This document shows positions 5,988-62,579 of a stretch of 64,000 nucleotides of DNA, in pieces (within the stretch, counting starts at the first letter, position 1; each line of letters opens with the position of its first letter). The notes below the pieces were generated by a model. It did no database searches, had not been told where the DNA came from, and saw only the letters and a program-made list of their open reading frames with translations. The DNA comes from Hymenobacter persicinus (GTDB lineage Bacteria; Bacteroidota; Bacteroidia; Cytophagales; Hymenobacteraceae): assembly GCF_004167665.1 (NCBI RefSeq), contig NZ_SEWE01000023.1:1-64000 (forward strand), written 5' to 3'. The position numbers and the translations under genes were made by a program.

Positions 5988-6142
5988 GCGCAGGCCCGGC
6001 CACGTGCCGGCCCCTGACCGACCCTGCCGATAACCGCCTGGCATCTCCCACCGCGCTACAACCGCGCTACAACCGGGCCCGGCCGCACCGCATGCTGCCA
6101 CCCAAAGTGTCTAGCTGAGTGGTCGGGCCACTGCTCACAAAA

Positions 6143-6174
6143 AAAGGCCCGCCTCCTTGCGGAAGCGGGCCTTT
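6143..6174. terminator. Terminator between cupin gene and atpG
   Basis: A perfect 10-bp stem, AAAGGCCCGC (6143-6152) with GCGGGCCTTT (6165-6174). Read on the minus strand it is followed by a run of eight T, so it ends the atp operon well. On the plus strand the T-tract is short. Confidence 0.85.
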
Positions 6175-6197
6175 CTGAATCAGAACTGAGCGTGTCC

Positions 6198-7091: not shown

Positions 7092-7106
7092 TCTTGTGAA
7101 AAATAA

Positions 7107-7190
7107 GTTGTCAGTTGCTCGTTGTCAGCTGTCAGTTTGGGCCAGACTTAACGTCCTTCTCCTGACAACTGACAACGAGCAACTGACAAC
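7107..7190. repeat. Intergenic palindrome with 29-base arms in the atp operon
   Basis: The arm 7107-7135 and the reverse complement of 7162-7190 agree at 28 of 29 positions around a 26-base loop. The arms themselves are built of near-repeats of GTTGTCAG. In the atpA-atpG mRNA this would fold into a very stable stem, which could affect mRNA stability or the relative amounts of alpha and gamma. Confidence 0.85.
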
Positions 7191-7197
7191 CGATGAA

Positions 7198-8781: not shown

Positions 8782-8789
8782 GTTTTTGT

Positions 8790-9350
8790 TTATAGATGGG
8801 GTTGGTAGGGGTTCTCTTTAAACGTGTTGCGCAGCTTGCGCAAGCTGTTACGCACCGATTCGTCGAGCTGACGGTCGCCTACGCGCAGGATAAACCCGCC
8901 GATGAGCGACTCATCAACCGATTCCTGCAAGGTAACGTTCTGCAAGCCGGACTGACGGCGCACCACTTTGTTGAGTTCTTCGCGCAGTTCGGGCGCGAGC
9001 GGGGCGGCGGTGGTCACCTGGGCAACCTGCATGCCGCGCAGCGCGTCGTACTGGCTCTGAAACTCGGTTGCCACCCATTCGAGGGCACTCTCGCGGTTGT
9101 GCTGGGTGATGATGGAGAAAAACTTCTCCGTCATTTCCGTCACTTTGCCGCCGAAAATTGCCTTCAGAATGGCCAGCTTCTTATCGTGCTTCACGATGGG
9201 GTTGCGCAGCAACAGGCGCAGGTCGCGGCTTTGCTCCAGCGTAGTGCGGAACAAATCCATGTCGGCCTTTACCTGCTCCAGCGTCCCGCGTTCCTCGGCC
9301 AGGTCCAGCAGGGACTTGGCGTAGCGGGAGGCAACTCGTTGTTCAGACAT
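8790..9350 (-). CDS. atpH: ATP synthase F1 subunit delta
   Basis: The product is 186 residues, the normal AtpH length. It links the top of F1 to the peripheral stalk. The N-terminal [17 protein letters not shown] and the C-terminal [28 protein letters not shown] are the conserved OSCP/delta motifs. It lies between atpF and atpA as expected, with a 105-bp repeat-filled gap before it and 8 bp after it. Confidence 0.96.
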
Positions 9351-9358
9351 TGGTTTTC

Positions 9359-9450
9359 AGTTGCGAGTTGCCAGTTGTCAGTTGCCAGATTCCAGTTGGC
9401 TGTCGATTCCACATCAACTGGCAACTGGTAACCGGCAACCGGCAACTGAT
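9359..9450. repeat. Imperfect intergenic palindrome of GTTGCCAGTT-type units
   Basis: The atpF-atpH gap is filled by near-repeats of CAGTTGCCAGTTGTCAG on the left and their complements (CAACTGGCAACTGG) on the right. It has the same unit type and layout as the palindrome between atpA and atpG, but is less perfect. Confidence 0.7.
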
Positions 9451-9455
9451 AACAA

Positions 9456-9950
9456 CTAGTTAAGCTTTACATCCTTCAGGTACGAGTCCACGAGTTGCTG
9501 CTGGGAACCGGAATCGGCCAGCTCCCGGCGCAGGATGCGCTCAGCAATGTCGATGGAAAGCTTGGCAGCCGTGTTTTTCACTTCGGTCAGCGCGGCGTTC
9601 TTCTCGTTCTGAATGGCTTCGCGGGCCTGCATGATCATGCGGCTGCCCTCTTCAGTGGCTTTGTTTTTGGCGGTCTCAACGAGTTGATTGGCCATTTGCG
9701 AAGCTTCCTGCATCATCTTGTCGCGCTCCATGCGGGCTTCGGTCAGCAAACGTTCGTTGCCGGCTTTGAGCTGCTGCATTTCCAGCTTGGCCTGGTCGGC
9801 CATGCGCAGGGCACTTTCGATAGAATCTTCGCGCTCCTTGAGGGAGAGCAGGATGGGCTTCCAGGCAAACTTGGCCAGCAGGAACAGCACGGTGAGGAAA
9901 ATCACCAACTGCCAGAAGATCAGACCAAATTCGGGCGTTACGATTTGCAT
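9456..9950 (-). CDS. atpF: ATP synthase Fo subunit b
   Basis: The product is 164 residues. One N-terminal transmembrane helix (about 8-28, FGLIFWQLVIFLTVLFLLAKF, then AWKPIL) is followed by a long charged helix (EREDSIESALRMADQAKLEMQQLKAGNERLL) ending near the delta-binding tail. This is the b-subunit plan: membrane anchor and peripheral stalk. There is no second b' copy nearby, so the stalk is probably a b homodimer. Confidence 0.96.
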   Translation of the reverse strand: MQIVTPEFGLIFWQLVIFLTVLFLLAKFAWKPILLSLKEREDSIESALRMADQAKLEMQQLKAGNERLLTEARMERDKMMQEASQMANQLVETAKNKATEEGSRMIMQAREAIQNEKNAALTEVKNTAAKLSIDIAERILRRELADSGSQQQLVDSYLKDVKLN

Positions 9951-47626: not shown

Positions 47627-48307
47627 TTACCGGGCCGTGGCCATGCGCCCGATCTTGGGAATCACCTGAATCAGGAAGCGCTTGTTCTGGCCTTCGCGGG
47701 CGCCGGCATAGCGGCCGGTGCCAAAGAAGCCGCTGCCGCCGATAATGAGCTCAATGCCGCGGTCCTGGCTGAAGTCGAGGCCGTTCTGCTTCCAGAAGTT
47801 GAGAAGGTTCAGGGCCCGGCGGTAGCTGAGCTGGTAGGTGAGCTGCTCCTCGGCCCGGTTGCGGGGGTCGTTGCCGGCGTAGCGGGCGGCCATGCCCTCC
47901 ACGATAACCAGGTAGCGCACGGGCTGCTCGGTGCGGATGGTCTTGAGCACGTCGCGCAGGGTGCGGCCGGCCTGGAGCAGGGCAGGCTTGTAGGCGTCCT
48001 GGATTTCGTCGCGGCCGGCCTTGAACTGCACCGGCACCAGCAGCTCGTGGCGCTCCAGCAACGGGTCGTACTTGAAGTAGCGGCCCTCCAGGCGCTTGAG
48101 GGAGTTGCGGATCTTGGTTATCTGCTCCAGCTCCTCGGCCTTGGCCTTCAGCTCCCCGTTGGCCTTTTTCAGGTCGTGTTCCCGGTCCTTAAACAGCTTG
48201 AAGCTGTAGACGAACAGCACCAGCATCACCACAAAGAGCGACGTCATCAGGTCCACGTAGCTGGGCCAGAAGAAGTCGTTGGAAGAGCGGTTTTGCGGGT
48301 CGTTCAT
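47627..48307 (-). CDS. MotB/ZorB-like stator subunit with OmpA-like domain
   Basis: The product is 226 residues. A short cytoplasmic N-tail leads into one transmembrane helix (about 15-37) with an acidic residue at its start, D19 in WPSYVDLMTSLFVVMLVLFV, the place of the proton-carrying Asp of MotB and ZorB. A coiled-coil (40-70) follows, then an OmpA/MotB-like peptidoglycan-binding domain: VQFKAGRDEIQ, LVIVEGMA, YRRALNLLNFW, and a GSGFFGTGR..EGQNKRFLIQVIP tail. It should pair with the channel protein at 48874-50331. It is the last gene of the candidate system. Confidence 0.85.
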   Translation of the reverse strand: MNDPQNRSSNDFFWPSYVDLMTSLFVVMLVLFVYSFKLFKDREHDLKKANGELKAKAEELEQITKIRNSLKRLEGRYFKYDPLLERHELLVPVQFKAGRDEIQDAYKPALLQAGRTLRDVLKTIRTEQPVRYLVIVEGMAARYAGNDPRNRAEEQLTYQLSYRRALNLLNFWKQNGLDFSQDRGIELIIGGSGFFGTGRYAGAREGQNKRFLIQVIPKIGRMATAR

Positions 48308-48333
48308 GGGGAAGGAATTGCGGAAAGGAAACC

Positions 48334-48816
48334 TTAAAACGTGCTGGTATCAACCCGCCTTTTGTTCTGCTCAACCAACTGGGCAATTTTGGCCTGCAAC
48401 TGGTTAAGCGAGGTTTCGGGCATACAAGTGCTGTCCGCTTTGCCTTTCCAGAAGGCTTTTACTAAGCTCTTATGCTGCGAGTAGCTTTTCATATTCTGCA
48501 CATACCAAAGCTCATCATCTGCTTTGACTACAACCACCAGATTGCCCGCTGTATGGTCGGTAGCACCTTGCCCGAATCTGTACAATCCGGTACCGGAGCA
48601 AGCGGCTAAGGCAACAATTGTGGTATCCTCGGGGAAAACATGTCGGGACTTTGTGAGCCTTGGTTTTGCCAAAACCCTTTTGATTGCTTCCTCGGTGCTA
48701 TAGCTCCGATATTCAAGCGGAATTTCAACTTTGCTGATGCTCTGCGCACTGACAGAATTGAACGCACTGATGCTTAGCAACAGGATGAATAAGAATGTGA
48801 CGCGCAGGTGCACCAT
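48334..48816 (-). CDS. Orphan secreted protein inside the candidate system
   Basis: The product is 160 residues with a signal peptide (MVHLRVTFLFILLLSISAFNSVSAQ). No family recognised. The mature part has two Cys (AACSGTG and STCMPE). Codon and base use are clearly AT-richer than the two stator genes on either side, so it is probably a later insertion. It separates the MotA-like and MotB-like genes, which are normally adjacent. Confidence 0.6.
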   Translation of the reverse strand: MVHLRVTFLFILLLSISAFNSVSAQSISKVEIPLEYRSYSTEEAIKRVLAKPRLTKSRHVFPEDTTIVALAACSGTGLYRFGQGATDHTAGNLVVVVKADDELWYVQNMKSYSQHKSLVKAFWKGKADSTCMPETSLNQLQAKIAQLVEQNKRRVDTSTF

Positions 48817-48837
48817 GTATATTGGATATTCTGATTG

Positions 48838-48875
48838 AACGTCATCCTGAGCTTGCGAAGGACCTTATGACAGTT
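48838..48875. repeat. TCATCCTGAGC-type dispersed repeat abutting the MotA-like gene
   Basis: AACGTCATCCTGAGC...ACCTTATGACAGTT has inverted ends (AACGTCAT / ATGACaGTT). The last two bases lie within the stop codon region of the channel gene (48874-48876). Sequences with this CATCCTGAGC core are, as far as I know, scattered in many Hymenobacter-type genomes. Confidence 0.55.
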
Positions 48876-50331
48876 ACACCGGCTTTACCCCGCCAAACAG
48901 GCTGTCCATAAACCGCTGGAACCGGTTTTTGGCCGTGGCTTTCACCAGCACCGTGTTCAGGTTGGAAAGTTCGGACAGCAGCTTGGCCTGGATCTGGGAG
49001 TCCAGCTCGATTTTGCGCAGCAGCTCCCGCTGGGTGGCCGATACTTCGCGGCCGAGCACGTCCTGCTGGGCGTTGAGCTGCTGGAAGGGCTCCAGGTACT
49101 GGCGGATCCGGTCGAAGACGTTGTCCTTGTTGAGCTGCTGGAAGTGCTGGCTCCACTTCTCGTAGGCCTGCTGGGCGTCCCGCTCGTGGAAGCTCAGGCG
49201 CTGCTGCATCAAATCGGTGAGGCGGCCGGTGGCCTCGTCGAAGTACTGCTCGGTGCGGGCGGCCACGTTGCCCATTTCCTTCTGGTGGCGCTGGAAAAAG
49301 TCGAGCTGGGCCTGTACCAGGTTGTCGTGCTGGCCGATGTACTGGCCCACGTTGTTGATGCCCCGCTCGAATCCCACGAGGCGGTCGAGGATACTGCCCA
49401 CGGCCCGAGCGGTGGCGGTGCCGTCTTCCAGCATCTGGTTGAGCCGCTGCTGGTAGCCGATAAACTGCTGGAACATTTCGGCCGACTGGCTCACTTTCTC
49501 GAACACGGCCACGTTGGCGTTGGCCATCTTATCGAAGCCGATTTCGTTGAGGCGCATGAGGAAGTCGCGCTGCACCTTCACGTTCTCGGTGAGCGTGCCG
49601 ATGACGGGCTCGAAGATGGTGACCTTGCTGACGAAATCCTGGTTGAAGGCGTCGAGCACGGCCTTCAGGTTCGACAGGCTGCCGGCCATGTCGGAGTGCA
49701 GGATGGGCAGCAGGCGGGCCTGCAGGAAGGTGTAGTAGTTGTTCTGGGCCTGGTCGAGGCGCTGGTGGGCGGTGCGCACGAGGCCGTTGCCGAGCAAGGT
49801 GAGCAGCAACCCCACGAAGGAGCCCGTCATGGCGATGAGCACCCCGGTCAGGAAGGGCGTCAGGGCCGCATCGTCCGACACGCCGTTGCGGGCAATGCCG
49901 ACCAGGCCCAGAATCACGCCCAGGAAGGTGCCGAGCAGCCCCAGGTAGAGCGGGGTGGCCACGTTAGCCTGCACCGCGTTTTCCATTACCTGGCTCTGGC
50001 GCTCGGAAATATCCTTGAGGATGCTGAAGTCGGCCGCGCCCTTGTTGTAGCGCAGGTAGCCGTTGGTGTCGGCCATGATTTCGCGGAAGCCGTCGGACAC
50101 AGCGTCGGCCTTGATGATTTCCACCGGGAAAGAGCCTTCCGGGGCGTTGGCGGCGTAGTCGGGCAGATCCTCGCCGCTGGGCGTGACGAGGCGGCGCTCC
50201 ACGCGCAGCGCATTTTTATCGGGGTAGAGCTGGCTCAGCTGCCGGGCCTGGGTGCGGGTGCGCAGAAACGTGCGAATCTGCAGGCCCACGACAATGGCCA
50301 CCACGACGACTTCGAGAATTATTTCGAGCAT
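48874..50331 (-). CDS. MotA/ZorA-like proton channel with long coiled-coil tail
   Basis: The product is 485 residues. Helix 1 is at about 2-19. Helices 2 and 3 (about 124-146 and 160-181) carry ATPLYLGLLGTFLGVILGLVGIA and FLTGVLIAMTGSFVGLLLTLLGN, the conserved core of the MotA/TolQ/ExbB family. About 300 residues of Gln/Leu/Asp-rich helix follow, predicting a long cytoplasmic coiled coil, as in ZorA of the Zorya system rather than in flagellar MotA. With the MotB-like protein it should form an inner-membrane, proton-driven stator. No zorC, zorD or zorE gene is nearby. Confidence 0.85.
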   Translation of the reverse strand: MLEIILEVVVVAIVVGLQIRTFLRTRTQARQLSQLYPDKNALRVERRLVTPSGEDLPDYAANAPEGSFPVEIIKADAVSDGFREIMADTNGYLRYNKGAADFSILKDISERQSQVMENAVQANVATPLYLGLLGTFLGVILGLVGIARNGVSDDAALTPFLTGVLIAMTGSFVGLLLTLLGNGLVRTAHQRLDQAQNNYYTFLQARLLPILHSDMAGSLSNLKAVLDAFNQDFVSKVTIFEPVIGTLTENVKVQRDFLMRLNEIGFDKMANANVAVFEKVSQSAEMFQQFIGYQQRLNQMLEDGTATARAVGSILDRLVGFERGINNVGQYIGQHDNLVQAQLDFFQRHQKEMGNVAARTEQYFDEATGRLTDLMQQRLSFHERDAQQAYEKWSQHFQQLNKDNVFDRIRQYLEPFQQLNAQQDVLGREVSATQRELLRKIELDSQIQAKLLSELSNLNTVLVKATAKNRFQRFMDSLFGGVKPV

Positions 50332-50527: not shown

Positions 50528-50872
50528 TTACTTCAGCGGCTCCAGCGCGAAACCCTGGTCGGTTTTCACCACGCGGAACCGGCGGTTGGCGCACTGCACG
50601 GTCGTCGTCTGCTCGTTGAGCGGCACGCGGCTGCGCGTCCACGAGCGGGTCCGGCCCAGGAAAGCCCCGCGCTTGTACGTAACCAGGAGCGTGTCACCCA
50701 CCATTTCCTGCTTGGTAATCTGGGTCTGGATGGCCGAGCTGAGCGAGGATATCCGGGGTTGACCGTTGTCCTGCACGAGCATAAAAGCGGAGTCTTCCTG
50801 AGTAGGGCCCACTTTGGAAGACAAGCAGCCGGCCAACGGCAGCCCCAGTAGCAGCAGGCAATACCGGTTCAT
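50528..50872 (-). CDS. Small lipoprotein of the candidate system
   Basis: The product is 114 residues with lipobox LAGC (MNRYCLLLLGLPLAGC). The mature part is short, beta-rich and basic toward the end (RSWTRSRVPLNEQTTTVQCANRRFRVVKTDQGFALEPLK). No family recognised. It starts 12 bp after the single-pass protein gene, so it is in the same transcript. Confidence 0.65.
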   Translation of the reverse strand: MNRYCLLLLGLPLAGCLSSKVGPTQEDSAFMLVQDNGQPRISSLSSAIQTQITKQEMVGDTLLVTYKRGAFLGRTRSWTRSRVPLNEQTTTVQCANRRFRVVKTDQGFALEPLK

Positions 50873-50884: not shown

Positions 50885-52435
50885 CTACTCAAAGTGAATG
50901 GCCGCCTTCTGCTCAATCTGCCAGGCGCCGTTGCTCTTGATGAGCGTGCCGTCCTTGTCGGTGACGATGCGGGAAACGGGGCCGTTGGGCTGCTGGTAGG
51001 CGCAAGCATCGCGCAGGGAGTATTGGGCGCTCTGGATGGCGTAGGCGTGCACCCCGGAGTTGGCCGTGACCCGGAACGTGGCCCGCTCGGGCACCCGGGG
51101 GTCGGGGGTTATTTCGTAGATGCTGTCGTGCTGGGGCTGCTCCTGCAGGTCATAGTCACTAAAGCCCCCGTTGACGGGCACCTTCACGTAGTAGCGCGAC
51201 GGCGCCGGTGGCGTAGGCTGGGGGGTCGGTACTGCCGGAGCAGTGGCTTCGCTCCAGTTGGTACCGGGCAGCTGCACGGGCGGAATCAGGCTTTCGAATT
51301 CGTCGCGGGGGGTACTGGCTGGCGAGCCGGCGGGCTGCACCGGCGGCTGGGGCATAGCTTCCTGAAACGACTCGGGAGCCGCCACGGGCGCTGGTACCGA
51401 CGCAGGAGCAGGCGGGGCGGCTACGGGCTGAGGCCGCGGCTGGGGCTGGGGCTGGGGCTGGGATGAGGGCGCCGCCGCAGCCGGAGCCGCTTGGCGGGGC
51501 GGAGTACTTTGCTGGGTGCCCTGGGGGCGCGGCTGGTTCTGCTTGCCCTGGTTCTGACCTTGCGGCTGCCCACTCCCCTGCTGGCGCTTGCCCAGCTCCT
51601 CGGCCACGCGCTGCTGCACCAGCTTCTCGATGTCGCGCTGCAGTTCCGGGGTCAGACCCTTGGCGGCAGCCACCGGGCGTGCCGGCATGCCATTGGCGGA
51701 GGCTTTCACCGATTCCAGCTCGTTGCGGTGACGGTCGGCACGGCTGCCCAGGTCGTTGATGCTACGGCGCAGCATGACGTAAAGAAACAAACTCAGCAAC
51801 GACATAATCAGCGCCAGCGGGGCAAAGAACTTGCTCATCAGGCTCTCCCCGCCCGCGGCCCGCGGGGCCGCGCTGGCTATTTGCTGGCTACCCAGCCCGG
51901 TTTCGGCCGGACCGGCCACGGCTTCGTCGGTGGCGGTGGTGTCGATAACGTCGGTCTGGTCGTCAGAGGCCACGGCCGTGGCGACGTCGGTGGGCGGGGT
52001 GCCGTTTTCGACGTAGCCTTTCAGCTGGGCTTCCAGGGCCTGCACGCCCTGCATGCGGGCGGCGTCTTTGCGGCGGGCCGGGGAGGCTTTGAGCTTGTTG
52101 ATGATTTCGGTAGCCAGCTTCTGCAGGCGCGACTTATCCGAGCCCAGCCCTTTGTACATCGTGCCGCGGGCCTCTAGGGGCTGGTAGAGCATGCTGTACA
52201 CCTTCTGGCTGTCGGCCTTGATGCTGTTTTCAAACTCCTTCAGGCTGCCGCCGCAGCGCAGGGTGCTTTGCAGGTTGGGCCGGCCGGTGTCGCCGTACAC
52301 GAACTTCATCGTGGCGCACCAGATCTGGGTTTTCTGCTCGTCGAGCGTGGGCTGGCCGAGCTGGGTTTGGGCGTGGGTGGCAGTCGAAGAAAACAGCCCG
52401 GCAAGCAGCAAGGCGCAGGAAAGGAAAATCCTCAT
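50885..52435 (-). CDS. Single-pass coiled-coil/Pro-Gln-rich protein of the candidate system
   Basis: The product is 516 residues. There is a signal peptide (1-23), a periplasmic domain with two Cys (C40 and C61 in WCATMKFVYGDTG and LRCGGSLKEFE), and a transmembrane helix at about 203-222. A coiled-coil segment (225-290) follows, then a long low-complexity Pro/Gln/Ala-rich stretch (290-440). A compact C-terminal domain (about 440-516, YYVKVPVNGGFSDYDLQEQ) is flanked by IYEITPDP and ATFRVTANS. The topology suggests a link between periplasm and cytoplasm. No family recognised. Confidence 0.7.
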   Translation of the reverse strand: MRIFLSCALLLAGLFSSTATHAQTQLGQPTLDEQKTQIWCATMKFVYGDTGRPNLQSTLRCGGSLKEFENSIKADSQKVYSMLYQPLEARGTMYKGLGSDKSRLQKLATEIINKLKASPARRKDAARMQGVQALEAQLKGYVENGTPPTDVATAVASDDQTDVIDTTATDEAVAGPAETGLGSQQIASAAPRAAGGESLMSKFFAPLALIMSLLSLFLYVMLRRSINDLGSRADRHRNELESVKASANGMPARPVAAAKGLTPELQRDIEKLVQQRVAEELGKRQQGSGQPQGQNQGKQNQPRPQGTQQSTPPRQAAPAAAAPSSQPQPQPQPRPQPVAAPPAPASVPAPVAAPESFQEAMPQPPVQPAGSPASTPRDEFESLIPPVQLPGTNWSEATAPAVPTPQPTPPAPSRYYVKVPVNGGFSDYDLQEQPQHDSIYEITPDPRVPERATFRVTANSGVHAYAIQSAQYSLRDACAYQQPNGPVSRIVTDKDGTLIKSNGAWQIEQKAAIHFE

Positions 52436-52461: not shown

Positions 52462-52881
52462 TTATTCTAACAGCAGAATCCAGCCTATTTTCGAGTCGTC
52501 AGGTGTTCCCGGGGCATCCCGCAGAAACTCCCATGATTCGCCTTGCAACGTCAATTGATACCGAGCTATTAACTCGTCACTAATTGACACTGTATTCGAC
52601 AGCCAAGCAAACATGAGCCGGTCATAGGCCTCCAAAAGAGGAGTTTGCCCAACCAGTATTTTGAAGTGGTCCGGCAGATACAACAGATTCTTCTGCTGTA
52701 TCAGATGCACCAAGTTGGCTTTATCCCGAAGCGAGATTCTGACTTCTCCCGTTTCATGCACAACATAGCCAGTGGATTCCAAATCGGGGAGATGCTCATC
52801 ATATGGATAGCAACTGAATACCGAATTATTCGGCATCAGCTCTAACACGTCCACTATAAAAGCTTCTCCCCGATCCAGCAT
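52462..52881 (-). CDS. Orphan cytoplasmic protein inside the candidate system
   Basis: The product is 139 residues with no signal or membrane helix. Its ATG (52881-52879) overlaps the stop of the large ATPase gene by one base, so translation is probably coupled. Composition is AT-richer than both neighbours. It contains no motif I recognise. It may be a small regulator or adaptor of the ATPase, or an inserted gene. Confidence 0.6.
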   Translation of the reverse strand: MLDRGEAFIVDVLELMPNNSVFSCYPYDEHLPDLESTGYVVHETGEVRISLRDKANLVHLIQQKNLLYLPDHFKILVGQTPLLEAYDRLMFAWLSNTVSISDELIARYQLTLQGESWEFLRDAPGTPDDSKIGWILLLE

Positions 52882-55800
52882 TACCCGTTCGTCATCAGCT
52901 CCCGGCTCAGGTTGTACAGGGCCTGCTTAAGCGGGTAGAAGAACAGCGTTTCGGGGAGGGTTTCGCCCTGGCCGAGGTTGCGGCCAATCTGGTGCAGGCC
53001 CAGGTTGAGGCTGTCCTCGATTTCGCGCAGCAGCATTTCCTTGATGCGGGTGCGGTCCACGTCCACGCCGACCTCGCGCATGAGCGGGGCCACGTCGTCG
53101 TTGTCGAGCACGATGTCCAGGAAACGTTTCGTGTTGTCGATGACGCTCTGCTTGAGGTCGGCATCCACCTGGGGCATTTTCAGGCGGGCCGTGTCGATGT
53201 CCTGGCCGGTCAGGGCGCCGTCCAGCTTCACGGTGCGGATCTGGTCGAAGTCGGCGGCGCTGGTGGCGCTTTCCTCGAACAGCACCCCGCCGTTGGTAGT
53301 GGCTTCTTTGGGGTTGTCGGCCAAGATGACGCGGAAGTTCTGGGGGGCTTCCTGGCCCGTGGCGGCCTTGAACACGGCTTTGCTGATCTTCTCAATGGCG
53401 GCCATGCTGGCGCCGCCGCTGAGCAGGCGCAGGTAGAGGCTGCCCTTACCCGAGAAGCACAGGTAGCGCGGGGGCTTGAGGCCCAGGTGCTGCACCAGCT
53501 GGGCCACGTGGTAGACGATGGCCGTGTAGTGCAGGTAAAACAGCACCCGCAGCTGCCGCCCCTTGCCCAGGCCGAGGCTCTGGGTGAAGCGCAGCGCGTC
53601 GTTGTACGTGAACAGCAGGCTGGTCACGTCGGCCGAGCCGAAGTCGGGGTTTTGCAGGGCGGCGCGCAGGTAGCCCTTGTACTCCTGGTTTTCCTCCGAG
53701 TCGGGCAGACTTTCCACGTACTGCACGCCGAGGCGGAGCAGGCCGTTCTGCTTGGGCGCGCCCTGCACGCGGGCGTAGCCGTCACCCCACAGGTCGTCGC
53801 CGGCGAAGCGGAAGGACGAGCTGAAGGCGGGCTTCTGGTCGGCGAAGATCAGCAGGTCGGTGGTGCCGCCGCCGATGTCGATGTTAATGACGTTTTCGTC
53901 GCGGTTGGGTACTACCTGGTTGGTAGCCGTGAGGTAGTAGTACGGCGCCACCGACTCCGAAATGCACTGGGTGGGGCGGCGGGCCCGGAAAATCTGCTGG
54001 AAAGCCTCGTCCCAGACCTGCTGGAACTGGTTGCGCAGGAACATATCAAAGCTCAGCGGGGCAAACCACACCACGCGGGTGTCTTCCAGGATGCCGCCCT
54101 GCATGGCCGCCTTGTGCTTCATCAGCAGCAGGATTTCCTTGAAGAAGGCCGCAATGCGGTTCACGCCCTGGGGGTCCAGTTCGGCGCTCCACTTCAGGTT
54201 GGTCACGAAGCGGTTCTGGGGCGGCTGCCCGGTTTCGGTGTTGATGCTGAAGCCGATGTTGATGTTGCTGAGCACCTTGCTGGGCTCGTTGGCGTAGGAG
54301 TTCGTCTCGCACACGGCGGTCCGGATTGGGAACTCATACACTGAGCCGGCCTCGCCGATGATGCTGGGCACAAATTCCCGGTTCTGAATCAGCGGAATGT
54401 CGAACAGCTGACCGGGGCCACGCATATAGCGCTGGTAGGCCGAGTAGCCGGTGTCAGGCAGCGGGGCGTTGAGCAGTTCCATCTGCAGGTCACTTTCCCC
54501 GATGGTGAACGGGCGCGGGTGGGCCGAGGGGCCATCAGCATACGCCACGTGGGTGTTGCTGGTGCCAAAGTCGACGGCGAAGGTGAAGCGGCGGGTACCG
54601 CGGTCCAGCTCCCGCCAGCGCGGCACGATCAGGCCCCGGGCCGGGGGCGCGCCGTGGAAAGCCGGCGGACAAGTCAGCTCGGCCAGGTCGAAGTGCGTCC
54701 CGGTGATTTCGTAGTAGGTGCTGCCGGCCGTGGACACGCTTTTCTGGGTGCGCTCAAACTTGGTGGCCCGCTTCGACGCGCCCTGGTCGGTGAGCCGCTC
54801 CCCGCCCACAAAGAACGTGAGGTCGTAGCGGCGCTGGAGCATGGTGGGCGAGTTGTCGGCGTCCACGAGCATGACCTTGTAGAAGTCGTTGTACTCGGGC
54901 TGGGCGCGCATCTTGTAGAACGGGAACACGCCCAGGCCGATGTTGGCCTTCACGATGCGGCCCTTCTCGGGAATCTCCCGGCCCTGGGCGTCCTTGGGGT
55001 TCTGCGGGTTCTGGTAGTAGCTCCGCTCGAAGGTGATGAAGCGGCCGCCCTGCACCGGAATCCGCAGCGCAATGCGCACGTGGTTCAGATCAATGGTGAA
55101 GGTGAGCAGCTCGGCCAGGTCGTGGTCGGAGAAGTACTCGAAGAAGGTCTGGCGCAGGGGCAGCAGGTATGGAAACCGCGCCCGGCCCTGGGTATCGGCC
55201 CCGTACTGGAACGTGACCTTGCCGGTGTGGAAGCGCTGGGCATTCAGCTCGTAGGGCAGCTCCACCAGGGCATCTTCCAGGAAGTCACCGACGGTCAGGT
55301 ACGGGTACTTGAAGCCTTTGCCGGGCAGCACGCGGTTTTCCAGGGTCAGCTCGTCGGCGTAGGGCACCGGGGTGCGGTCGTCCCAGGGCTGGCCGTTGAG
55401 GTAGTTGGCGCCCTGCATGGTCAGGTTGGGGCGCAGCACCAGCGGGGTGGGTCGGCTCTGATTGGTTTGCCGCGTCGGCGCAATGAACAGGTCCGAGCTG
55501 GTCACGGCCGACTGGTCGGCGCGGCTGGGCAGGGGCACGTGCTTCACGCTGGCCAGGTTGCCCTGGAAGTCGGCAATGGCGGGGTAATTGGTGGCAAACT
55601 GCTGGGCCGTGTGGTCGCCCTGCATCTGCATCTGGTTGATACGGTTCCGGTCGAGGCCGGCAAACACGCTGCCGGCAAATTCCCGGCGCTGCAGCTGCGG
55701 GTAGGCCAGGAACAGCTCGTAGACAAACTCCCGGAACGCCGGGGACCGGTCTTCGAGCAGCACCACCTGGTTGTCGAAGTAGTGGCCGCGGGCCTGGGCG

Positions 55801-56351
55801 CGCTCCAGGTCCAGCTGGCGCACGGCCGGCGCGGTGAACAGCAAGGTCAAAGGCGAAGTACCGCCCAGCAGCTGGGGCCCGCCGGGCAGATTCGGCGACT
55901 CGTAGAACACGAGGTACATATCCGAGAAGTCGCGGAACCGGTCGTCCTGCAAAAACAGGCGCAGGGTTTCGCCCAGCAGGCGGGTACCTTCGTCGCCCTG
56001 CATCCGGCGCAGCTCGGCCTCCACGTTCCAGCGGCGCAGGGTAATTTTGCGGCCGGCCTGGGTGTAGAGGTTGTAGTTGTAGAGGATTTCGAACAGGTCC
56101 CAGAAGTGCGACACCAACTCGTGGTAGACCGAGCCGGGGTTGCGCTGCCCTTCCCGGGCCAGGAAGTCGAAGGCGGTTTCAAACAGGTGCATTCGCGCAA
56201 ACGGCGTCGGGATGCTCACCGCCACGTTCTTGGCCCGCCCGCCCGTGGGGTCGGTGACGGTGTTGATTTCGGTGCTGGTGATGGGCGCAGTTTTCTGCCA
56301 GCCCTGCACCTGCTGGGAACCATTGTTGTGAAGACGAAGGACTTTGGGCAT
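52881..56351 (-). CDS. Very large Hsp70/actin-fold ATPase, SrfB-like
   Basis: The product is 1156 residues. An N-terminal region of about 580 residues has no obvious family signature; it is helical at the start (FARMHLFETAFDFLAREGQRN) and beta-rich later. An ASKHA (actin/Hsp70) ATPase follows, with phosphate-1 FAVDFGTSNTHVAYADGPS at about 588-606 and phosphate-2 NIDIGGGTTDLLIFAD at about 822-837. The adenosine region with CFSGKGSLYLRLLSGG lies further on. Size and motifs resemble virulence factor SrfB, an Hsp70-like protein of unknown role. It is placed directly after the tubulin-like gene. Confidence 0.8.
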   Translation of the reverse strand: MPKVLRLHNNGSQQVQGWQKTAPITSTEINTVTDPTGGRAKNVAVSIPTPFARMHLFETAFDFLAREGQRNPGSVYHELVSHFWDLFEILYNYNLYTQAGRKITLRRWNVEAELRRMQGDEGTRLLGETLRLFLQDDRFRDFSDMYLVFYESPNLPGGPQLLGGTSPLTLLFTAPAVRQLDLERAQARGHYFDNQVVLLEDRSPAFREFVYELFLAYPQLQRREFAGSVFAGLDRNRINQMQMQGDHTAQQFATNYPAIADFQGNLASVKHVPLPSRADQSAVTSSDLFIAPTRQTNQSRPTPLVLRPNLTMQGANYLNGQPWDDRTPVPYADELTLENRVLPGKGFKYPYLTVGDFLEDALVELPYELNAQRFHTGKVTFQYGADTQGRARFPYLLPLRQTFFEYFSDHDLAELLTFTIDLNHVRIALRIPVQGGRFITFERSYYQNPQNPKDAQGREIPEKGRIVKANIGLGVFPFYKMRAQPEYNDFYKVMLVDADNSPTMLQRRYDLTFFVGGERLTDQGASKRATKFERTQKSVSTAGSTYYEITGTHFDLAELTCPPAFHGAPPARGLIVPRWRELDRGTRRFTFAVDFGTSNTHVAYADGPSAHPRPFTIGESDLQMELLNAPLPDTGYSAYQRYMRGPGQLFDIPLIQNREFVPSIIGEAGSVYEFPIRTAVCETNSYANEPSKVLSNINIGFSINTETGQPPQNRFVTNLKWSAELDPQGVNRIAAFFKEILLLMKHKAAMQGGILEDTRVVWFAPLSFDMFLRNQFQQVWDEAFQQIFRARRPTQCISESVAPYYYLTATNQVVPNRDENVINIDIGGGTTDLLIFADQKPAFSSSFRFAGDDLWGDGYARVQGAPKQNGLLRLGVQYVESLPDSEENQEYKGYLRAALQNPDFGSADVTSLLFTYNDALRFTQSLGLGKGRQLRVLFYLHYTAIVYHVAQLVQHLGLKPPRYLCFSGKGSLYLRLLSGGASMAAIEKISKAVFKAATGQEAPQNFRVILADNPKEATTNGGVLFEESATSAADFDQIRTVKLDGALTGQDIDTARLKMPQVDADLKQSVIDNTKRFLDIVLDNDDVAPLMREVGVDVDRTRIKEMLLREIEDSLNLGLHQIGRNLGQGETLPETLFFYPLKQALYNLSRELMTNG

Positions 56352-56411: not shown

Positions 56412-57860
56412 TTACACCACTTTCACCTTTTCCTCGAAGGCTTTGTCGGTTACCTGGTCGAACAGGGCGACGAGCTTGCGGAAGCTGTCGGGCTCGTGGA
56501 TGGACTTGGCCGCGTCGTTGAGCTGGTTGAGGAAGTAGTTCTGGCTGAGGCCCTTGTTGAAGAAGTCGTTCCACTTCTTTTCCACCGGCTTGCCCGAAAT
56601 CATGGCGTTGAAGTCGTCGGTGGTCAGGTCGAAGGGGCGGAAGCTGCGGCGGTTCTGGCTGAGCTCCTTGAGCCACTCGTCGACGCCGTACTCGGGGCTG
56701 TGCAGGAAGTTATTGAGCTCCTTGAAGATGGGCTCGTTGCGCAGGGCGTGGTCCAGGTTTAGGTTGTCGTGGTAGGGCGCCTTGTCGGTGGGCAGGTGCT
56801 GCTTGTGGTAGCGCGAGAAGTACAGCAGCTGGGTCAGGTGCTTGGCAATCAGCTCCCGGCTCTCGTCGGGCAGGTGGCTGAAGTTCAGGTCCTGGGTGTC
56901 GGTGCCGAGGCCGTACTCGTGGAAGTGGGGCGCGCCGTTGCGCAGCTCGGCGTCGGAGTACTGCATGAAGTCGACCACGCTCAGGGCGGCCAGTAGCTCG
57001 ATGAGGTGGGCCTTGTTGCGCTGGGCGGTGCCGCCGGGCTGGTTTTCGTAGGGCGTGTCGGGCGTGTCGGCCAGGTAGTACAGCGCGTCGAGGCCCTGCA
57101 GGTTGTGCTCGTAGTAGCTGAGCGCGGCCTTGGTCTTGGTCAAAAAGGAGTTGGAGTCGATAACCGAGTTGTCTTCGCTCTGCAGGGCGAAGTAGGGCAT
57201 CACCGTCACGGCGCCGGTGAGGGCATTGCGCAGGTAGCCGGCGTTGCTGAGACGGGTGTTGGGGTCTTTGAGGTTTTTGAGCAGCAGTGGGAAGCCCGCG
57301 GCCCCGGTCCCGCCGAAGATGCTGGAAATGAAGAACACCCGGTCGCCGGCCTGGAAGTTGTCGGCAAAAAACCGGATTTCCGGCGACTCCACCACTTTGT
57401 TCAGCACGATGCTGCCCACGTTGGGCGAACCGCGGAAACCAATGGTGAGCGGGCTTTCCAGGTTGTCCTGGGTGAAGAGCAGCTCCACGAGGCCCTTGGA
57501 ATCCACCGACAACTGGTCGTAGCTCAGGTACTGGCGGAAGCTCTGGTTGATGCCGCCGAAGTCGAACACAAAGGTGTCTTTCACCCCGCCGTTGGTGTCG
57601 GCCGAGATGCTGCTCAGGGTGCTGACATCGGTCTGGAAGAAGCCGTCGTCACGGGGGCCCAGGTGCTGGTAGATCTGCTGGTAGCTTTTGAGCATGTCCA
57701 CCGTGCGGTTCATGTCGCCGTTGTGAGCGTCGGGGTCGATGATGATGGGCACCACCCGGTCGCAGTTGGCGAGCTTCACGCCCGAGGCCAGCAGCATGGT
57801 TAGGGACCGAATGACGCGGGAGCCGGTGCCGCCAATGCCGAAAATGAACAGTTTAGCCAT
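56412..57860 (-). CDS. Tubulin-like domain protein
   Basis: The product is 482 residues from the ATG at 57860; an in-frame ATG at 57980 lies inside a repeat-rich leader. The first strand-turn is KLFIFGIGGTGSRVIRSL, a Rossmann-type GxGGTGS nucleotide loop. At 183-189 comes GGTGAAG in ISSIFGGTGAAGFPLLL, the tubulin/FtsZ signature loop. Together they fit the bacterial 'tubulin-like' family (Pfam Tubulin_2 type), distinct from FtsZ. It is probably a GTP-binding cytoplasmic protein; polymerisation is not known. It is 60 bp upstream of the large ATPase gene. Confidence 0.82.
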   Translation of the reverse strand: MAKLFIFGIGGTGSRVIRSLTMLLASGVKLANCDRVVPIIIDPDAHNGDMNRTVDMLKSYQQIYQHLGPRDDGFFQTDVSTLSSISADTNGGVKDTFVFDFGGINQSFRQYLSYDQLSVDSKGLVELLFTQDNLESPLTIGFRGSPNVGSIVLNKVVESPEIRFFADNFQAGDRVFFISSIFGGTGAAGFPLLLKNLKDPNTRLSNAGYLRNALTGAVTVMPYFALQSEDNSVIDSNSFLTKTKAALSYYEHNLQGLDALYYLADTPDTPYENQPGGTAQRNKAHLIELLAALSVVDFMQYSDAELRNGAPHFHEYGLGTDTQDLNFSHLPDESRELIAKHLTQLLYFSRYHKQHLPTDKAPYHDNLNLDHALRNEPIFKELNNFLHSPEYGVDEWLKELSQNRRSFRPFDLTTDDFNAMISGKPVEKKWNDFFNKGLSQNYFLNQLNDAAKSIHEPDSFRKLVALFDQVTDKAFEEKVKVV

Positions 57861-57998: not shown

Positions 57999-58391
57999 CT
58001 AAAAAGGAGTCGTGCTGGCGTTGGTCGAGCCGCGCTTGAGCAGGACGGAGAACAGGAAAAACCAGAACAGGCCCAGGATGGCGTTCCAGGTCGACATCCA
58101 GTAGACGTAGGAGTGCGAGGCCACTTCCTGGGAGCTGGTCTGCCAGAGGCCGATGAAGAAGGCCAGCAGCGCATTGATTACCAAAAAGATAACCCAGTGG
58201 CGCAGCTTATTAAAGGTAGCCACGCCCATGGCGCGGTTAATCAGGTAGTAGAAAATCAGCACCATGGCCAACGACAGGCCGATGGTGAGCAAACCCACGT
58301 TCGGGAAAATCACCTCCCGGTACACCGGAGTTTCCGACGGCGGCTGGGGCGTGCCAATGAGTTCGTAGAGGAAGCGGAAGAAACCTTTCAT
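57999..58391 (-). CDS. Three-helix membrane protein of the candidate system
   Basis: The product is 130 residues from the ATG at 58391. Transmembrane helices at about 28-50, 64-83 and 98-119 separate short loops, with NRAMGVATFNKLRHW between the first two and a short polar C-tail. No signature is recognised. Its gene stands between the VWA-like lipoprotein gene and the repeat ahead of the tubulin-like gene. It is a candidate inner-membrane anchor for the cytoplasmic parts. Confidence 0.7.
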   Translation of the reverse strand: MKGFFRFLYELIGTPQPPSETPVYREVIFPNVGLLTIGLSLAMVLIFYYLINRAMGVATFNKLRHWVIFLVINALLAFFIGLWQTSSQEVASHSYVYWMSTWNAILGLFWFFLFSVLLKRGSTNASTTPF

Positions 58392-58473: not shown

Positions 58474-59856
58474 CTAGTCGGCGGGCTGGAGCGTGAGTGG
58501 AATGGTGAAAACCGGAGCTTTTTGCTCCCCGCCCGCCACGGCTTCAACTCCGTCGAGCAGGCTGCTCAGGGCAAAGGTCTTGGCCCCGGTCTGGTTGATG
58601 TTGCTGTCATTCTTGGTGGTCCACTGGCTTACCCAGGCCGGCCGCTGGTCCCGGAGCACGAGCTGCACGGGGCGGGCCCCCGCGCCGAGCTTGGTAACGC
58701 GCACTTTGACAAAATGCGTGTATTGATTTTCGGCCCCGCTGCTGTTTTTTGTCTGGTCGCTGGCTCCAAAGACGCTCACAATCTTGGCGTCAGTGTCCTG
58801 GGCCTGCAGTTGCAGGTTGGCTTTCAAGTAGTTCAGGTCGCGGTACAGGCCGGGCAGGGCCTGCAGATCGAGGCCCACCACAAACTCCACCGGCTCCTTC
58901 GCCGACACCTTGCTGATGGCCACCGTGTGATAAGAGGCCCCGGCCGTGCGCTTGCTGGCGTCCTTTTCCCCGTAGTACCAGGCGCCCACGTTTTGGAAGC
59001 GGCTGAGCAGGGAAGTCGGCGGCGCCGGGTATTTCACCCCGAAGTGGGCCTGCTGGGCGGGCTGCTTTTCGAGCTGGGCGGCATCGAAGCGGCGCACGGC
59101 GTCGGCGGGCCCAATCACCCAGAAGTAGTACGGAACAGCCGTGTCGCAGCAGCCCGTGATTTTCTTGGGGCCGCTTTTCAGGGCCGGATAATACGTGCCG
59201 CGGAAGTCGGAAGCGTAGCCGTACACCGATACGGCCAGGTCGGCGCGACGGGTGCGGTTCAGGGCATCGGTAATGTCGGTGCTGATATAGGGAATGGCCC
59301 CGGCATTCTTGGGCGAGTAAATGAAGTCCGAAATCAGCACGCTAACTGAGTTGGGCGCGTAGTAGCCGGTCACGAGCGTGTCGAGGACCGTGGGAATGTC
59401 GGTGCTGCTGGCGGGCTGCTGAATGCCGCCGCGCACGGTTTGGGAAAGCTGTTGGTAGGAATCCCGGTAAGGTTTTTCCTTGATGCGGAAATAGGTTTTG
59501 CGGGCTGCTGAGCTGCGGTTCACCTCCGACAGAAACTGCGCCACGTGCTGCTGAAAGCGGGTGTTGGCGGCATCGGCGCCGGTTTTGGGCATGAAGCCTT
59601 CCATCGAGCCCGACACTTCCAGAAACACGTTGACCTGGGCCAGCGGCCCAGTACCAGCTGGCGCGGCGGCGGCTTCCGCGGCCGGGGTTTCCGTGGGCGC
59701 TGCGGCGCCGGGAGTTTCTGCGGGCGGCACCGTTTCCGTCACGGCGGGCTCCGCAGCGCGATTTTCGCCCTTCATATCGGAGCGGGAGTAGCAGCCGGAA
59801 AGCAGCACGCCCAGGGCCAGGGCAGGCAGCAGCGGGAAAGAGCGGGTCAAATGCAT
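58474..59856 (-). CDS. VWA-like lipoprotein of the candidate system
   Basis: The product is 460 residues from the ATG at 59856, with lipobox LLSGC (C22) and an Ala/Pro/Glu/Thr-rich linker to about residue 70. From about 75 a von Willebrand A-like fold is suggested by VNVFLEVSGSMEGFM, where E80-x-S82-x-S84 stands in place of the usual DxSxS metal site. SVSVLISDFIYSP and ADLAVSVYGYASDF follow as later strands. The C-terminal 200 residues are beta-rich. It is the first gene of the operon, probably exposed to the periplasm. The frame is open to 60054 but without a plausible leader. Confidence 0.75.
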   Translation of the reverse strand: MHLTRSFPLLPALALGVLLSGCYSRSDMKGENRAAEPAVTETVPPAETPGAAAPTETPAAEAAAAPAGTGPLAQVNVFLEVSGSMEGFMPKTGADAANTRFQQHVAQFLSEVNRSSAARKTYFRIKEKPYRDSYQQLSQTVRGGIQQPASSTDIPTVLDTLVTGYYAPNSVSVLISDFIYSPKNAGAIPYISTDITDALNRTRRADLAVSVYGYASDFRGTYYPALKSGPKKITGCCDTAVPYYFWVIGPADAVRRFDAAQLEKQPAQQAHFGVKYPAPPTSLLSRFQNVGAWYYGEKDASKRTAGASYHTVAISKVSAKEPVEFVVGLDLQALPGLYRDLNYLKANLQLQAQDTDAKIVSVFGASDQTKNSSGAENQYTHFVKVRVTKLGAGARPVQLVLRDQRPAWVSQWTTKNDSNINQTGAKTFALSSLLDGVEAVAGGEQKAPVFTIPLTLQPAD

Positions 59857-60170
59857 TCGGACTAAGTGAGGTTCGTCGGCGGGCGTCGCCCCTTGCGTAC
59901 TGCGGCCGGGGCCGGCAGGTTGTGGGCAACGTCGTGTAAGGCTATAAAATTTTACGGCATAATCCGCATATAGACCTGTTCCGATGCGTTCCGCGGGGCC
60001 AGTTGCCCCGACAAAATTGTGCCACAAAGCCGGAAGCCCCGCTACCTTGGCCAACGCCCCGCTTGCGAAAACAACCCGACCGTTCAGCTTTATTGCTTGG
60101 CAATCCGGGCTTTGTTGTTTGCGCTCTGCGCCTGCTTATCCACTTTTCCGCTACTTATTTCTAATCCCGC
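59857..60170. other. Divergent intergenic region upstream of the candidate system
   Basis: These 314 bases separate the divergent genes at 59856 and 60171 and should hold both promoters. I see A/T-rich blocks on the minus strand (TTTTATAGCC near 59950) but no full TTG/TAnnTTTG promoter and no clear gene, palindrome or terminator. Confidence 0.4.
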
Positions 60171-60805: not shown

Positions 60806-61804
60806 CTAGCTGTAATCGATTTCGGTGTTATCACCGATGTTCAAACTATGGTTCAGGCCCCGGAACGAGGCGTCGGAGCCCACGATACAGTCGTGCATGA
60901 CGGCCTGCCGCAGCTCGGAGTAGGAGCCGATGATGGAGTCGCTCAGAATCGTGTTCTTGACGATGGTCCGGTCGCCGATGGCCACGTTGGGCCCGATGAT
61001 GGAGTGCGAAATCTGGCAGTCCTTGCCGATGCTGACGGGCGGAATGATGATGGTATCGGGAAACTCGGGGTAGTGGCGCTCCAGAAACTCGGGCCGCCCC
61101 AGCAGACGGGCGTTGGCTTCGAGCAGGCTTTCCTTGCGGCCGCAGTCAAACCAGTTGTCGACCGGGGCGGTGCTCATCTGGGCCCCGTCGTTGATCATCA
61201 GCATCAGGGCATCGGTGAGCTGAAACTCGCCGTGGGTGCGCTGGTCCTGCCCAATCAGGCGCTCCAGGGCCGAGGCCAGCCAGGCCGGGTCGGCAATCTT
61301 GTAGAGGCCCACCAGGGCGTAGTTCGACTTCGGAATGCGCGGCTTCTCCACCACTTTCGTCACCCGGCCGCTGGGGCTGGTTTCAACCAGGCCAAACATG
61401 CTTGGGGTCTTCACTTCCTTCACGGCCAGGATGCTGCCCGGCAGTTGGAGCAACTGGGGCAGGTCCACGTCCACGATGGTGTCGCCGAGCATGATGAGCA
61501 CCCCATCCTGGTCGTGGCGAAACGTGTCGCGGGCCAGCCACAGGGCGTGGCCGATACCCTCGCGCGGCTCCTGCACCACGAAGGTGGCGCGCAGCTCGGG
61601 ATACTGCCGGCGCACGTAGCTCTCAATCTTCTCGCCCAGGTAGCCGATGATGAAGACGAACTCCTCGATGCCGGCCGCCCGCAGCCGGTCGATGATGTGA
61701 CCCAGAATGGTATTGCCGGCCACGGGCACCAGCGACTTGGGCTGGGTGTGCGTGTGGGGCCGCAACCGCGACCCAATACCAGCAACAGGAATAACAGCTT
61801 TCAT
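60806..61804 (-). CDS. Sugar nucleotidyltransferase with left-handed beta-helix tail
   Basis: The product is 332 residues from the ATG at 61804. It opens with the pyrophosphorylase signature MKAVIPVAGIGSRLRPHTHTQPKSLVPVAGNT and continues with GIGHALWLA, LIMLGDTIVDVDL and NWFDCGRKESLLEAN. Hexapeptide repeats (IGKDCQISHSIIGPNVAIGDRTIVKNTILSDSIIG) follow. It is of the glucose-1-phosphate thymidylyl/uridylyltransferase or GDP-mannose type and makes an NDP-sugar for envelope glycans; the sugar is not certain. Confidence 0.88.
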   Translation of the reverse strand: MKAVIPVAGIGSRLRPHTHTQPKSLVPVAGNTILGHIIDRLRAAGIEEFVFIIGYLGEKIESYVRRQYPELRATFVVQEPREGIGHALWLARDTFRHDQDGVLIMLGDTIVDVDLPQLLQLPGSILAVKEVKTPSMFGLVETSPSGRVTKVVEKPRIPKSNYALVGLYKIADPAWLASALERLIGQDQRTHGEFQLTDALMLMINDGAQMSTAPVDNWFDCGRKESLLEANARLLGRPEFLERHYPEFPDTIIIPPVSIGKDCQISHSIIGPNVAIGDRTIVKNTILSDSIIGSYSELRQAVMHDCIVGSDASFRGLNHSLNIGDNTEIDYS

Positions 61805-62000
61805 GAACAGCAACGCTAGCGTAAGTCCGCAAAGTAATCAATCATTGTCGAGTGAGCCCCGGCACAACCGCAACGACCCGAATGCGTACTTTGCAGCGCA
61901 CCGGGTGGTGGCCCGTCGTAACCAGCCACGGGCCGTCCGGGTTTTCGCCCTTCCTTTGCTTTCTCCTTCCTTTTTTCCCTTCCATCCTATTTCCTTCCAC

Positions 62001-62579
62001 ATGAAACGGTTTCTCCTCTACTTCGCGGGCCTGGTCATTCTGCTTTCGCAGTCCTCCTGCGGCTACAACTCCATGGTGTCGAAAGACCAAGCCGTGAAGG
62101 CGCAGTGGGCCAACGTGCAAAACAGCTACCAGCGCCGCGCCGACCTGATTCCGAACCTGGTGAACACCGTAAAAGGGGCTGCCAACTTCGAAAAGTCGAC
62201 CCTGACCGACGTAATTAATGCCCGCGCCAAGGCTACTAGCGTGCAGATTTCGAGCGACCAGCTCACGCCCGAAAACCTGCAGAAATTCCAGGAAGCCCAG
62301 AGCCAGGTTAGCGCCGGGCTGGGCCGGCTGCTGGCCGTGTCGGAAAACTACCCCGACCTGAAGGCCAACGCCAACTTCCAGGAGCTGCAGGCCCAGATTG
62401 AGGGCACCGAAAACCGCATCAACGTGGAGCGCGGCAAGTTCAACGCCGTCACCAACGACTATAACGGCTACATCAAGTCGTTCCCCAACAACCTGTTTGC
62501 CGGCATGTTTGGCTTCAAGGAGAAGCCTTACTTCGAAGCCGACGCGGCCTCGCAGAAGGCGCCGACGGTTCAGTTCTAA
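62001..62579 (+). CDS. lemA: LemA family lipoprotein
   Basis: The product is 192 residues from the ATG at 62001. N-terminal lipobox SSC in LLSQSSCGYNSMVSKDQAVKAQWANVQ. LemA hallmarks are YQRRADLIPNLVNTVKG, LGRLLAVSENYPDLKAN and FQELQAQIEGTENRI. The product is a helical bundle attached to the membrane. It stands directly before two TPM-domain genes, a pairing conserved in many bacteria, where the set is thought to act in envelope stress or protein turnover; function is not established. Confidence 0.93.
   Translation: MKRFLLYFAGLVILLSQSSCGYNSMVSKDQAVKAQWANVQNSYQRRADLIPNLVNTVKGAANFEKSTLTDVINARAKATSVQISSDQLTPENLQKFQEAQSQVSAGLGRLLAVSENYPDLKANANFQELQAQIEGTENRINVERGKFNAVTNDYNGYIKSFPNNLFAGMFGFKEKPYFEADAASQKAPTVQF

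Follow-up and report, generated by a model that had tools for sequence, protein, structure and literature searches.

What might a stator that resembles ZorA and ZorB of the Zorya defence systems be doing among genes for cytoskeleton-like proteins? The question is raised by a stretch of 64,000 nucleotides from Hymenobacter persicinus (contig NZ_SEWE01000023.1; "the window" hereafter), in which a ZorA-like channel subunit (48874..50331) and a ZorB-like partner (47627..48307) stand last in an operon that lies entirely on the minus strand. Sequence comparison establishes this operon as a conserved one that unites, in this order, a putative lipoprotein with a metal-ion-dependent adhesion site (MIDAS) motif, a protein with three transmembrane (TM) segments, a tubulin-superfamily GTPase, an actin-fold ATPase, a single-pass adaptor and the stator pair. 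The pair probably forms a Zorya-like membrane motor driven by protons. The family of this motor is known for defence against viruses; here, it may be working on an internal skeleton. Our tentative reading, to which we give somewhat less than an even chance, is an envelope machine that is anchored to peptidoglycan, draws its power from protons, acts through its tail on an assembly of actin- and tubulin-type nucleoside triphosphatases (NTPases) and probably has a housekeeping function in Hymenobacter.

According to its hydropathy, the ZorA-like protein (485 amino acids) has TM segments beginning at residues 1, 128 and 163, followed by 304 further residues. AlphaFold2 (AF2), which we applied to the ZorA-like and the actin-like proteins, models it as nearly all helix after residue 154; the original prediction of three membrane helices and a helical tail of about 300 residues thus holds. 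Three TM segments were found in 79 of 80 aligned sequences (the window protein and 79 homologues), with tails of 302 to 357 residues, and T135, S171 and T178 are conserved. The model consists of a long first helix (2–33), a beta pair (42–49, 68–75), two membrane helices and the helical tail, with blockwise predicted local distance difference test (pLDDT) values of 69–91 over residues 1–200 and 38–67 past residue 210. A cytoplasmic beta-sheet has been described as a Zorya trait (PMC12505986; this and the other articles cited below are used here in part). The ZorB-like protein (226 amino acids) has a single TM segment from residue 18 and a periplasmic OmpA/ZorB-type domain, which Pfam detects weakly (E 0.029, under the cut-off) and the PADLOC ZorB model clearly (PDLC00608, E 1.6e-12). 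D19 and R164, the latter within an LSxxRA motif, are invariant (77/77 rows each). An Asp at the start of a single helix and an OmpA-like domain had likewise been predicted, and in none of the close homologues has the membrane Asp been lost.

By fold and sequence, the window pair belongs to the MotA/TolQ/ExbB superfamily. Profile, PDB-sequence, tree and hhalign results place it, with moderate support, as a ZorAB-like sister group nearer to ZorA and ZorB than to MotA or TolQ/ExbB. The best PADLOC matches are ZorB1 for the ZorB-like protein and ZorA2 (E 2.9e-5) for the ZorA-like protein; the curated NCBIfam Zorya cut-offs were not reached (19.7 of 700 bits for ZorA2, 23.2 of 400 bits for ZorB1), and PF01618 matched the ZorA-like protein under its cut-off as well (E 8.9e-4, 19.4 of 22.9 bits). 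Against the PDB, the only clear matches of the ZorB profile were ZorB chains (8vvn, 1.2e-8; 8qyd, 2.1e-5; 8vvi followed at 0.075), and MotB, TolR and ExbD were absent up to E 10; 8vvn and 8vvi are the structures of Zorya I and II (PMC11890865). In the hhalign comparison, the A subunit was closest to Zorya-type proteins (1.5e-9), followed by TolQ/ExbB (3.5e-6), with no similarity to MotA. As a probe of whole genomes the PADLOC ZorB1 model was useless for counting, since 219 of 296 genomes match, which we attribute to its OmpA domain.

The trees combined 12 of the 20 sequences of alignments A1 and A2 with those of loci L061, L164 and L066 and references. In the tree of A subunits (n=28), a branch with support 96/94 parts the operon, DarT-linked, Zorya-type and L066 proteins from TolQ/ExbB and MotA, so the window protein falls inside neither of the latter clades; a further branch (91/84) sets the MotA rows and one unknown apart from the remainder. 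The operon and DarT-linked proteins form a clade of their own on a long stem (92/100), which in the tree of B subunits (n=27) reaches 100/100 and joins Zorya at 85/80. These trees have long branches (above all L066), outgroups that do not lie on one side of a branch, and, for the A subunit, a bootstrap that had not fully settled. The reference labels are our own: the large size of its neighbours and a ZorB1 match at E 1.6e-44 led us to call L190 Zorya I, whereas L165, L191, L196 and L197 were called Zorya-type from a ZorB1 match and neighbours without confirmation by ZorC, ZorD or ZorE profiles, and L192, L198 and L199 flagellar from their neighbours. Left out of the alignments were L037 (A1 and A2; ZorA overruns the contig and no ZorB precedes its end), L040 (A3 and A4; broken frames) and L026, L030 and L039 (A5). 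Taken together, the PADLOC and ZorB PDB matches, the trees and the A-subunit hhalign result uphold the earlier suggestion of an affinity to ZorA/ZorB over flagellar MotA.

The remaining Zorya components were not found beside the pair, as had also been claimed. PADLOC profiles for ZorC, ZorD and ZorE matched none of the eight other operon proteins, and ten flanking genes (window positions 41302–63947) yielded, at E up to 0.01, only a weak PglX match (E 0.0063); positions 1–41301 were not scanned for nucleases. Three SNF2 matches of the genome all lie on other contigs, and a search of it for EH_Signature gave no match, from which nothing follows as the controls were silent too. The original prediction had further proposed that the stator was recruited to a cytoskeletal-type effector. 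Cytoskeletal-type neighbours are indeed present, and there are two of them, the actin-fold and the tubulin-superfamily protein, whose role as effectors and contact with the tail are hypothetical; an origin of the stator from Zorya is not shown, the window clade being a long-stemmed sister and not nested.

The first of these two neighbours, a 1156-amino-acid protein (52881..56351), carries an actin/MreB/Hsp70-fold ATPase domain at about residues 587–1036. Its AF2 model (pLDDT 78.6) matched MreB in Foldseek (E 1.9e-8) and in VIA (Z 12.9, root-mean-square deviation 3.9 over 265 residues within 587–1036), with Hsp70s at Z of about 12. The phosphate motifs D594/G596/T597 and D825/G827–829/D832 are kept in 81/81 rows, with position 830 varying between T (78 rows) and S (3 rows). 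We also considered SrfB as its family; this was rejected as weak, with matches in only two of 20 members (best E 0.014).

The second neighbour (56412..57860, 482 amino acids) is a predicted short tubulin/FtsZ-superfamily GTPase with intact nucleotide loops: both GGTG loops, near residues 10–13 and 183–186, occur in 81/81 rows. PF00091 and PF13809 each matched all 20 members at E ≤ 1 (best 4.7e-5 and 1.1e-6, respectively); the window protein stays under both Pfam cut-offs (for PF13809, 15.4 of 27 bits), and a cyanobacterial relative passes that of PF13809 (40.8 bits). In hhalign, the family profile is linked through six divergent relatives (E 1.3e-60) to Tubulin_2 (1.3e-10). No similarity was detected directly to Tubulin_2 or to 12 FtsZ sequences, and direct FtsZ kinship was dropped; a search of PDB sequences returned nothing up to E 1. 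The coiled coil and alpha-helical C-terminal extension of Tubulin_2 (about 1000 amino acids) are absent from the 482-residue protein in the alignment of 20. The genome's own FtsZ gene is located away from the operon, which makes the operon gene an extra paralogue. A phage origin of this gene was likewise rejected, with no match in 50,697 phage records. Some Hymenobacter tubulin-like proteins (L124, L125, L127–L146) are just 44–53% identical to that of the window, vs 56–57% in Pontibacter, which points either to an ancient split or to replacement of the gene through transfer between members of the genus; L126 is Rufibacter.

A scan of genome collections detected at least 574 relatives of the tubulin-like protein, and the best 80 were taken for locus comparison. 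Chosen by this similarity, they are not representative of the phylum: 76 belong to genera that taxonomy places in the Hymenobacteraceae, the others being Solirubrum, Nafulsella, Cesiribacter and one Cesiribacteraceae. The first four operon genes were present in 80/80 loci, the ZorA-like gene in 79, the ZorB-like gene in 76 and the adaptor in 75, with identical gene order in 70. Such recurrence of pair and operon in conserved order is more than chance. It also bears on the possibility that the stator simply adjoins the other genes and serves a purpose of its own, its place in the operon reflecting hitch-hiking. We regard this as highly improbable, because in 76/80 loci both stator genes come after the actin-like gene and share its strand; of the four misses, three (L071, L130, L133) lie at contig ends, and in the fourth, L122, the expected place holds a weak match to ZorB (E 9e-4). 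In addition, in a phylum sample of 395 genomes, a strong ZorB of the window clade (E < 1e-20) was found in six, all of which also have the tubulin-like gene, and the association of stator and tubulin/actin genes is repeated in the distant L066. Hitch-hiking would accord with a ZorA–ZorB gap that reaches 662 bases in one locus and with the existence, described below, of NTPase pairs without stator and of a stator without NTPases.

The tubulin-like gene was present in 13 of the 395 genomes, nine of them outside the genus. ZorA/ZorB-like genes adjoin it in three of eight such loci (L061, L063, L066); the ninth, L060, stops within the actin gene. At L061, the lipoprotein, TM protein, tubulin, actin, ZorA and ZorB profiles all match. 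L063 has ZorA/ZorB-like genes, broken frames and no actin match, and in the very divergent L066 the tubulin, actin and ZorB profiles match, a ZorA-like open reading frame (ORF) was recognised by PADLOC and the lipoprotein profile was silent. Within the family (150 genomes), the actin-like gene occurs in 122, including all 66 same-genus genomes listed, which suggests that the role of the operon in Hymenobacter is probably housekeeping; the 28 negatives comprise 20 that are listed, all of other genera, and 8 that are not listed. Moreover, the flanking genes 60806–61813 and 61995–62579 recur in 35/80 loci, and this, together with the near-universal presence in the genus, favours housekeeping over accessory defence.

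How could such a machine work? In Zorya, function depends on binding to peptidoglycan, on a flow of ions and on the tail of ZorA (PMC11890865); by analogy, we propose that ZorB is tethered to peptidoglycan, that protons pass at D19 and that the ZorA tail turns. A ZorA5:ZorB2 complex, the 5:2 ratio again by analogy, would reside in the inner membrane. Once the ZorB domain grips peptidoglycan, a proton path would open at D19 and the ZorA pentamer would rotate, taking its helical tail along. As the conserved neighbours are actin-fold and tubulin-type NTPases, the simplest reading is that the tail, together with the conserved C-terminal domain of the adaptor, acts mechanically on their assembly, which it might load, turn or take apart; the lipoprotein may serve as a sensor or anchor facing the periplasm or the outer membrane. 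The role in Hymenobacter could be envelope organisation, tension sensing or transport. The more specific version, in which the ZorA tail turns or feeds actin-/tubulin-like filaments and ion flow drives the cytoskeleton to move or exert force across the envelope, is in our estimate unlikely.

Several results weigh against the affinity of the pair to ZorA/ZorB or are neutral to it. At E ≤ 0.01, any single PADLOC ZorA model matches at most 4 of 20 family members, and the sole superfamily match of the ZorA profile in the PDB, ZorA, is non-significant (E 0.31). The 304-residue tail is shorter than those of four Zorya-type references (368–414 by hydropathy). For the B subunit, hhalign ties ZorB (7.9e-13) with MotB (3.1e-12), and we dropped it as a means of telling this subunit apart. 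Other results weigh against the reading as an envelope machine acting on an NTPase assembly. The Pal-type peptidoglycan site GHT is EGMAA or EGRAA in most ZorB-like members of the alignments, which makes peptidoglycan binding uncertain despite R164, and none of 18 lipoprotein members, nor four distant ones, matched the Pfam vWA family, so that the likeness to vWA is at motif level. The coupling of tail and NTPases, the filaments, the proton flow and the function are what we infer.

Structure comparison, too, does not part ZorA from ExbB/TolQ. With the ZorA-like model, Foldseek puts ExbB/TolQ first (4.9e-4), slightly over ZorA (4.0e-3), with MotA at 7.2e-2. VIA ties ZorA (Z 11.2, residues 1–235), ExbB (11.2) and TolQ (11.1), whereas PomA scores 8.2 and helical proteins of unrelated families reach 9.9; GldL is not among the 50 matches listed in either search, which excludes nothing. 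These results would suit an energiser of the ExbBD/TolQR kind, in which ZorB passes the work of the motor to the periplasmic lipoprotein and the outer membrane and the NTPases are mere regulators, and so would the inclusion of a lipoprotein and a signal-peptide-bearing adaptor in the operon. However, the cytoplasmic tails of four MotA/TolQ/ExbB proteins measured only 21–79 residues vs 304 here, the B subunit matches ZorB in the PDB and PADLOC searches and neither TolR nor ExbD, and the 96/94 branch leads away from TolQ/ExbB, all of which makes an energiser quite improbable.

Further counter-evidence comes from loci in which the parts occur separately. The tubulin/actin pair is found without the stator in L058, L059, L062 and L161–L163, which indicates that the pair can do without the motor. 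L058, L059 and L062 have lipoprotein, TM protein, tubulin, actin, adaptor and then a one-TM protein in the stator's place. This protein contains WG repeats above cut-off in L058 (15605–17020) and L059 (15051–16352) and a bacterial SH3-type stretch below cut-off in L062 (14710–16014). On a Prevotella replicon, lipoprotein, TM protein, tubulin, actin and an adaptor-like gene are present with no stator within the stretch read. L162 and L163, plasmids of Gloeothece and Picosynechococcus, carry tubulin, actin and a MIDAS-motif lipoprotein-like gene, which in one of the two lies on the other strand; a Synechococcus NIES-970 plasmid (L200) was judged similar from gene sizes and a tubulin match only. 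L064 (368–8455) has a divergent tubulin, a weakly detected actin (E 4.4e-6) and a TerD-resembling ORF without Pfam match. L065 (1172–10172) has a tubulin that is likewise divergent and a 1301-amino-acid ORF undetected by the actin profile, followed by TerD genes, of which one is confirmed (E 2.8e-68) and two look similar. In some other lineages, the stator's place beside the tubulin/actin pair is thus taken by another membrane protein or holds no recognisable gene.

Conversely, a stator without the NTPases occurs beside DarT in Parabacteroides distasonis (L164, NZ_OY725823.1), and it belongs to the window clade (ZorA E 2.4e-69, ZorB 6.2e-53). DarT (PF14487, E 4.5e-30), a DUF6939/NADAR-DarT1-like gene, ZorA-like and ZorB-like genes lie there in a row (5520–9642), a candidate DarT-ZorAB defence locus; from their annotation, we read its neighbours as seemingly mobile-element-borne. 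Both kinds of locus indicate that the motor is a module attached to a tubulin/actin core. At the same time, the DarT link, the TerD link and the plasmid-borne pairs point away from housekeeping. They are among the arguments for a Zorya-type anti-phage system, in which ZorAB, together with the lipoprotein, senses phage damage to the envelope and the NTPases, as effectors, assemble or trap phage components. The kinship of the stator to ZorAB by PADLOC, PDB and trees is another, as is the proposal of tubulin/HSP70/vWA operons as conflict systems (PMC7159879). The presence in all 66 same-genus genomes listed and the shared flanks are rather those of a core gene, and no nuclease, helicase or toxin was recognised among the operon proteins; we therefore consider an anti-phage function possible but rather doubtful.

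Returning to the envelope machine, its parts can be compared with known systems. As in Zorya types I–III, which also give the best PADLOC and PDB matches, an A subunit with three TM segments and a long helical cytoplasmic tail is combined with a one-TM B subunit bearing a membrane Asp and an OmpA-like domain; unlike there, the window pair has no ZorC, ZorD or ZorE found beside it, a shorter tail, a long-stemmed sister position, a near-core distribution in the genus and actin/tubulin-type NTPases as partners. With the proton-driven motors MotAB, TolQR, ExbBD and GldLM it shares the superfamily and, by analogy, the 5:2 arrangement, whereas its long tail and operon partners differ from MotAB, TolQR and ExbBD. 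The actin-fold protein shares ATPase fold and motifs with MreB/MamK actins and SrfB (MreB is the top structural match, nearly tied with Hsp70) and differs from MreB/MamK in its roughly 590-residue N-terminal region.

The tubulin/actin core is related in kind to two previously described groups. FtsZl1 (Pfam Tubulin_2) operons with vWA, GTPase and OmpA proteins were connected to membrane remodelling by Makarova & Koonin 2010 (PMC2875224), and here, too, a divergent tubulin-superfamily protein stands beside vWA-type, membrane and OmpA-like proteins. The window protein, however, has 482 amino acids vs 982–1208 in five Bacteroidota Tubulin_2 proteins and is under the Pfam cut-off, Pfam revealed no P-loop GTPase in the operon, and its actin-fold and MotA-like partners go unmentioned in the part of that article used here. 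Likewise, Kaur et al. 2020 (PMC7159879) proposed tubulin, HSP70-superfamily and vWA proteins with DO-GTPase/GAP1 as NTP-driven assemblies, and these themes recur in the window; no P-loop GTPase was found among the Pfam matches of the operon proteins, neither a DO-GTPase nor GAP1 was recognised (no dedicated profile was run), and the word "MotA" is absent from the article's main text. New in the window operon is the motor module, which neither article mentions in the parts used. To our knowledge, a proton-driven rotary stator acting directly on the bacterial cytoskeleton has been described in no organism. Our literature search (titles and abstract openings, mostly open-access, top matches of longer lists) found no account of a stator joined to tubulin/actin genes.

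How the Zorya tail relays the motion of the motor is so far a hypothesis (PMC11890865), and a power source for the divergent tubulin/vWA operons is not described in the portions of PMC2875224 and PMC7159879 drawn on; one inherited gene set joins both questions. If true, the coupling would add a new mode of energy transduction, from an ion gradient to a cytoskeleton. With or without it, the ZorAB-type motor appears as an interchangeable module with at least two partners besides Zorya, the actin/tubulin pair and DarT. Hymenobacter is a genus cultured in the laboratory, and many records of the locus comparison bear strain names, which makes the operon genetically testable.

The remaining genes of the operon are the following. 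The lipoprotein (58474..59862; LSGC, Cys24) has the MIDAS-like positions E82-x-S84, T154 and D179, kept as E/D82, S84, T/S154 and D179 in 81/81 rows, and is followed by the 130-amino-acid protein with three hydrophobic TM segments (57999..58391). The adaptor (50885..52435) comprises a signal peptide, an N domain with weak DUF6683 similarity, a TM segment at 204, a P/Q-rich region and a conserved C-terminal domain (about 412–516). A 139-amino-acid ORF (52462..52881) is present in few relatives. A small lipoprotein of 114 amino acids (50528..50872; LAGC) and a 160-amino-acid ORF between the stator genes (48334..48816), with a hydrophobic, signal-peptide-like N-terminus, had no relative in the 20 loci searched. 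Elsewhere in the genome, an ExbB/TolQ-like gene (L001, 1435–2303) is seemingly split across two overlapping frames, by a sequencing error or a real break.

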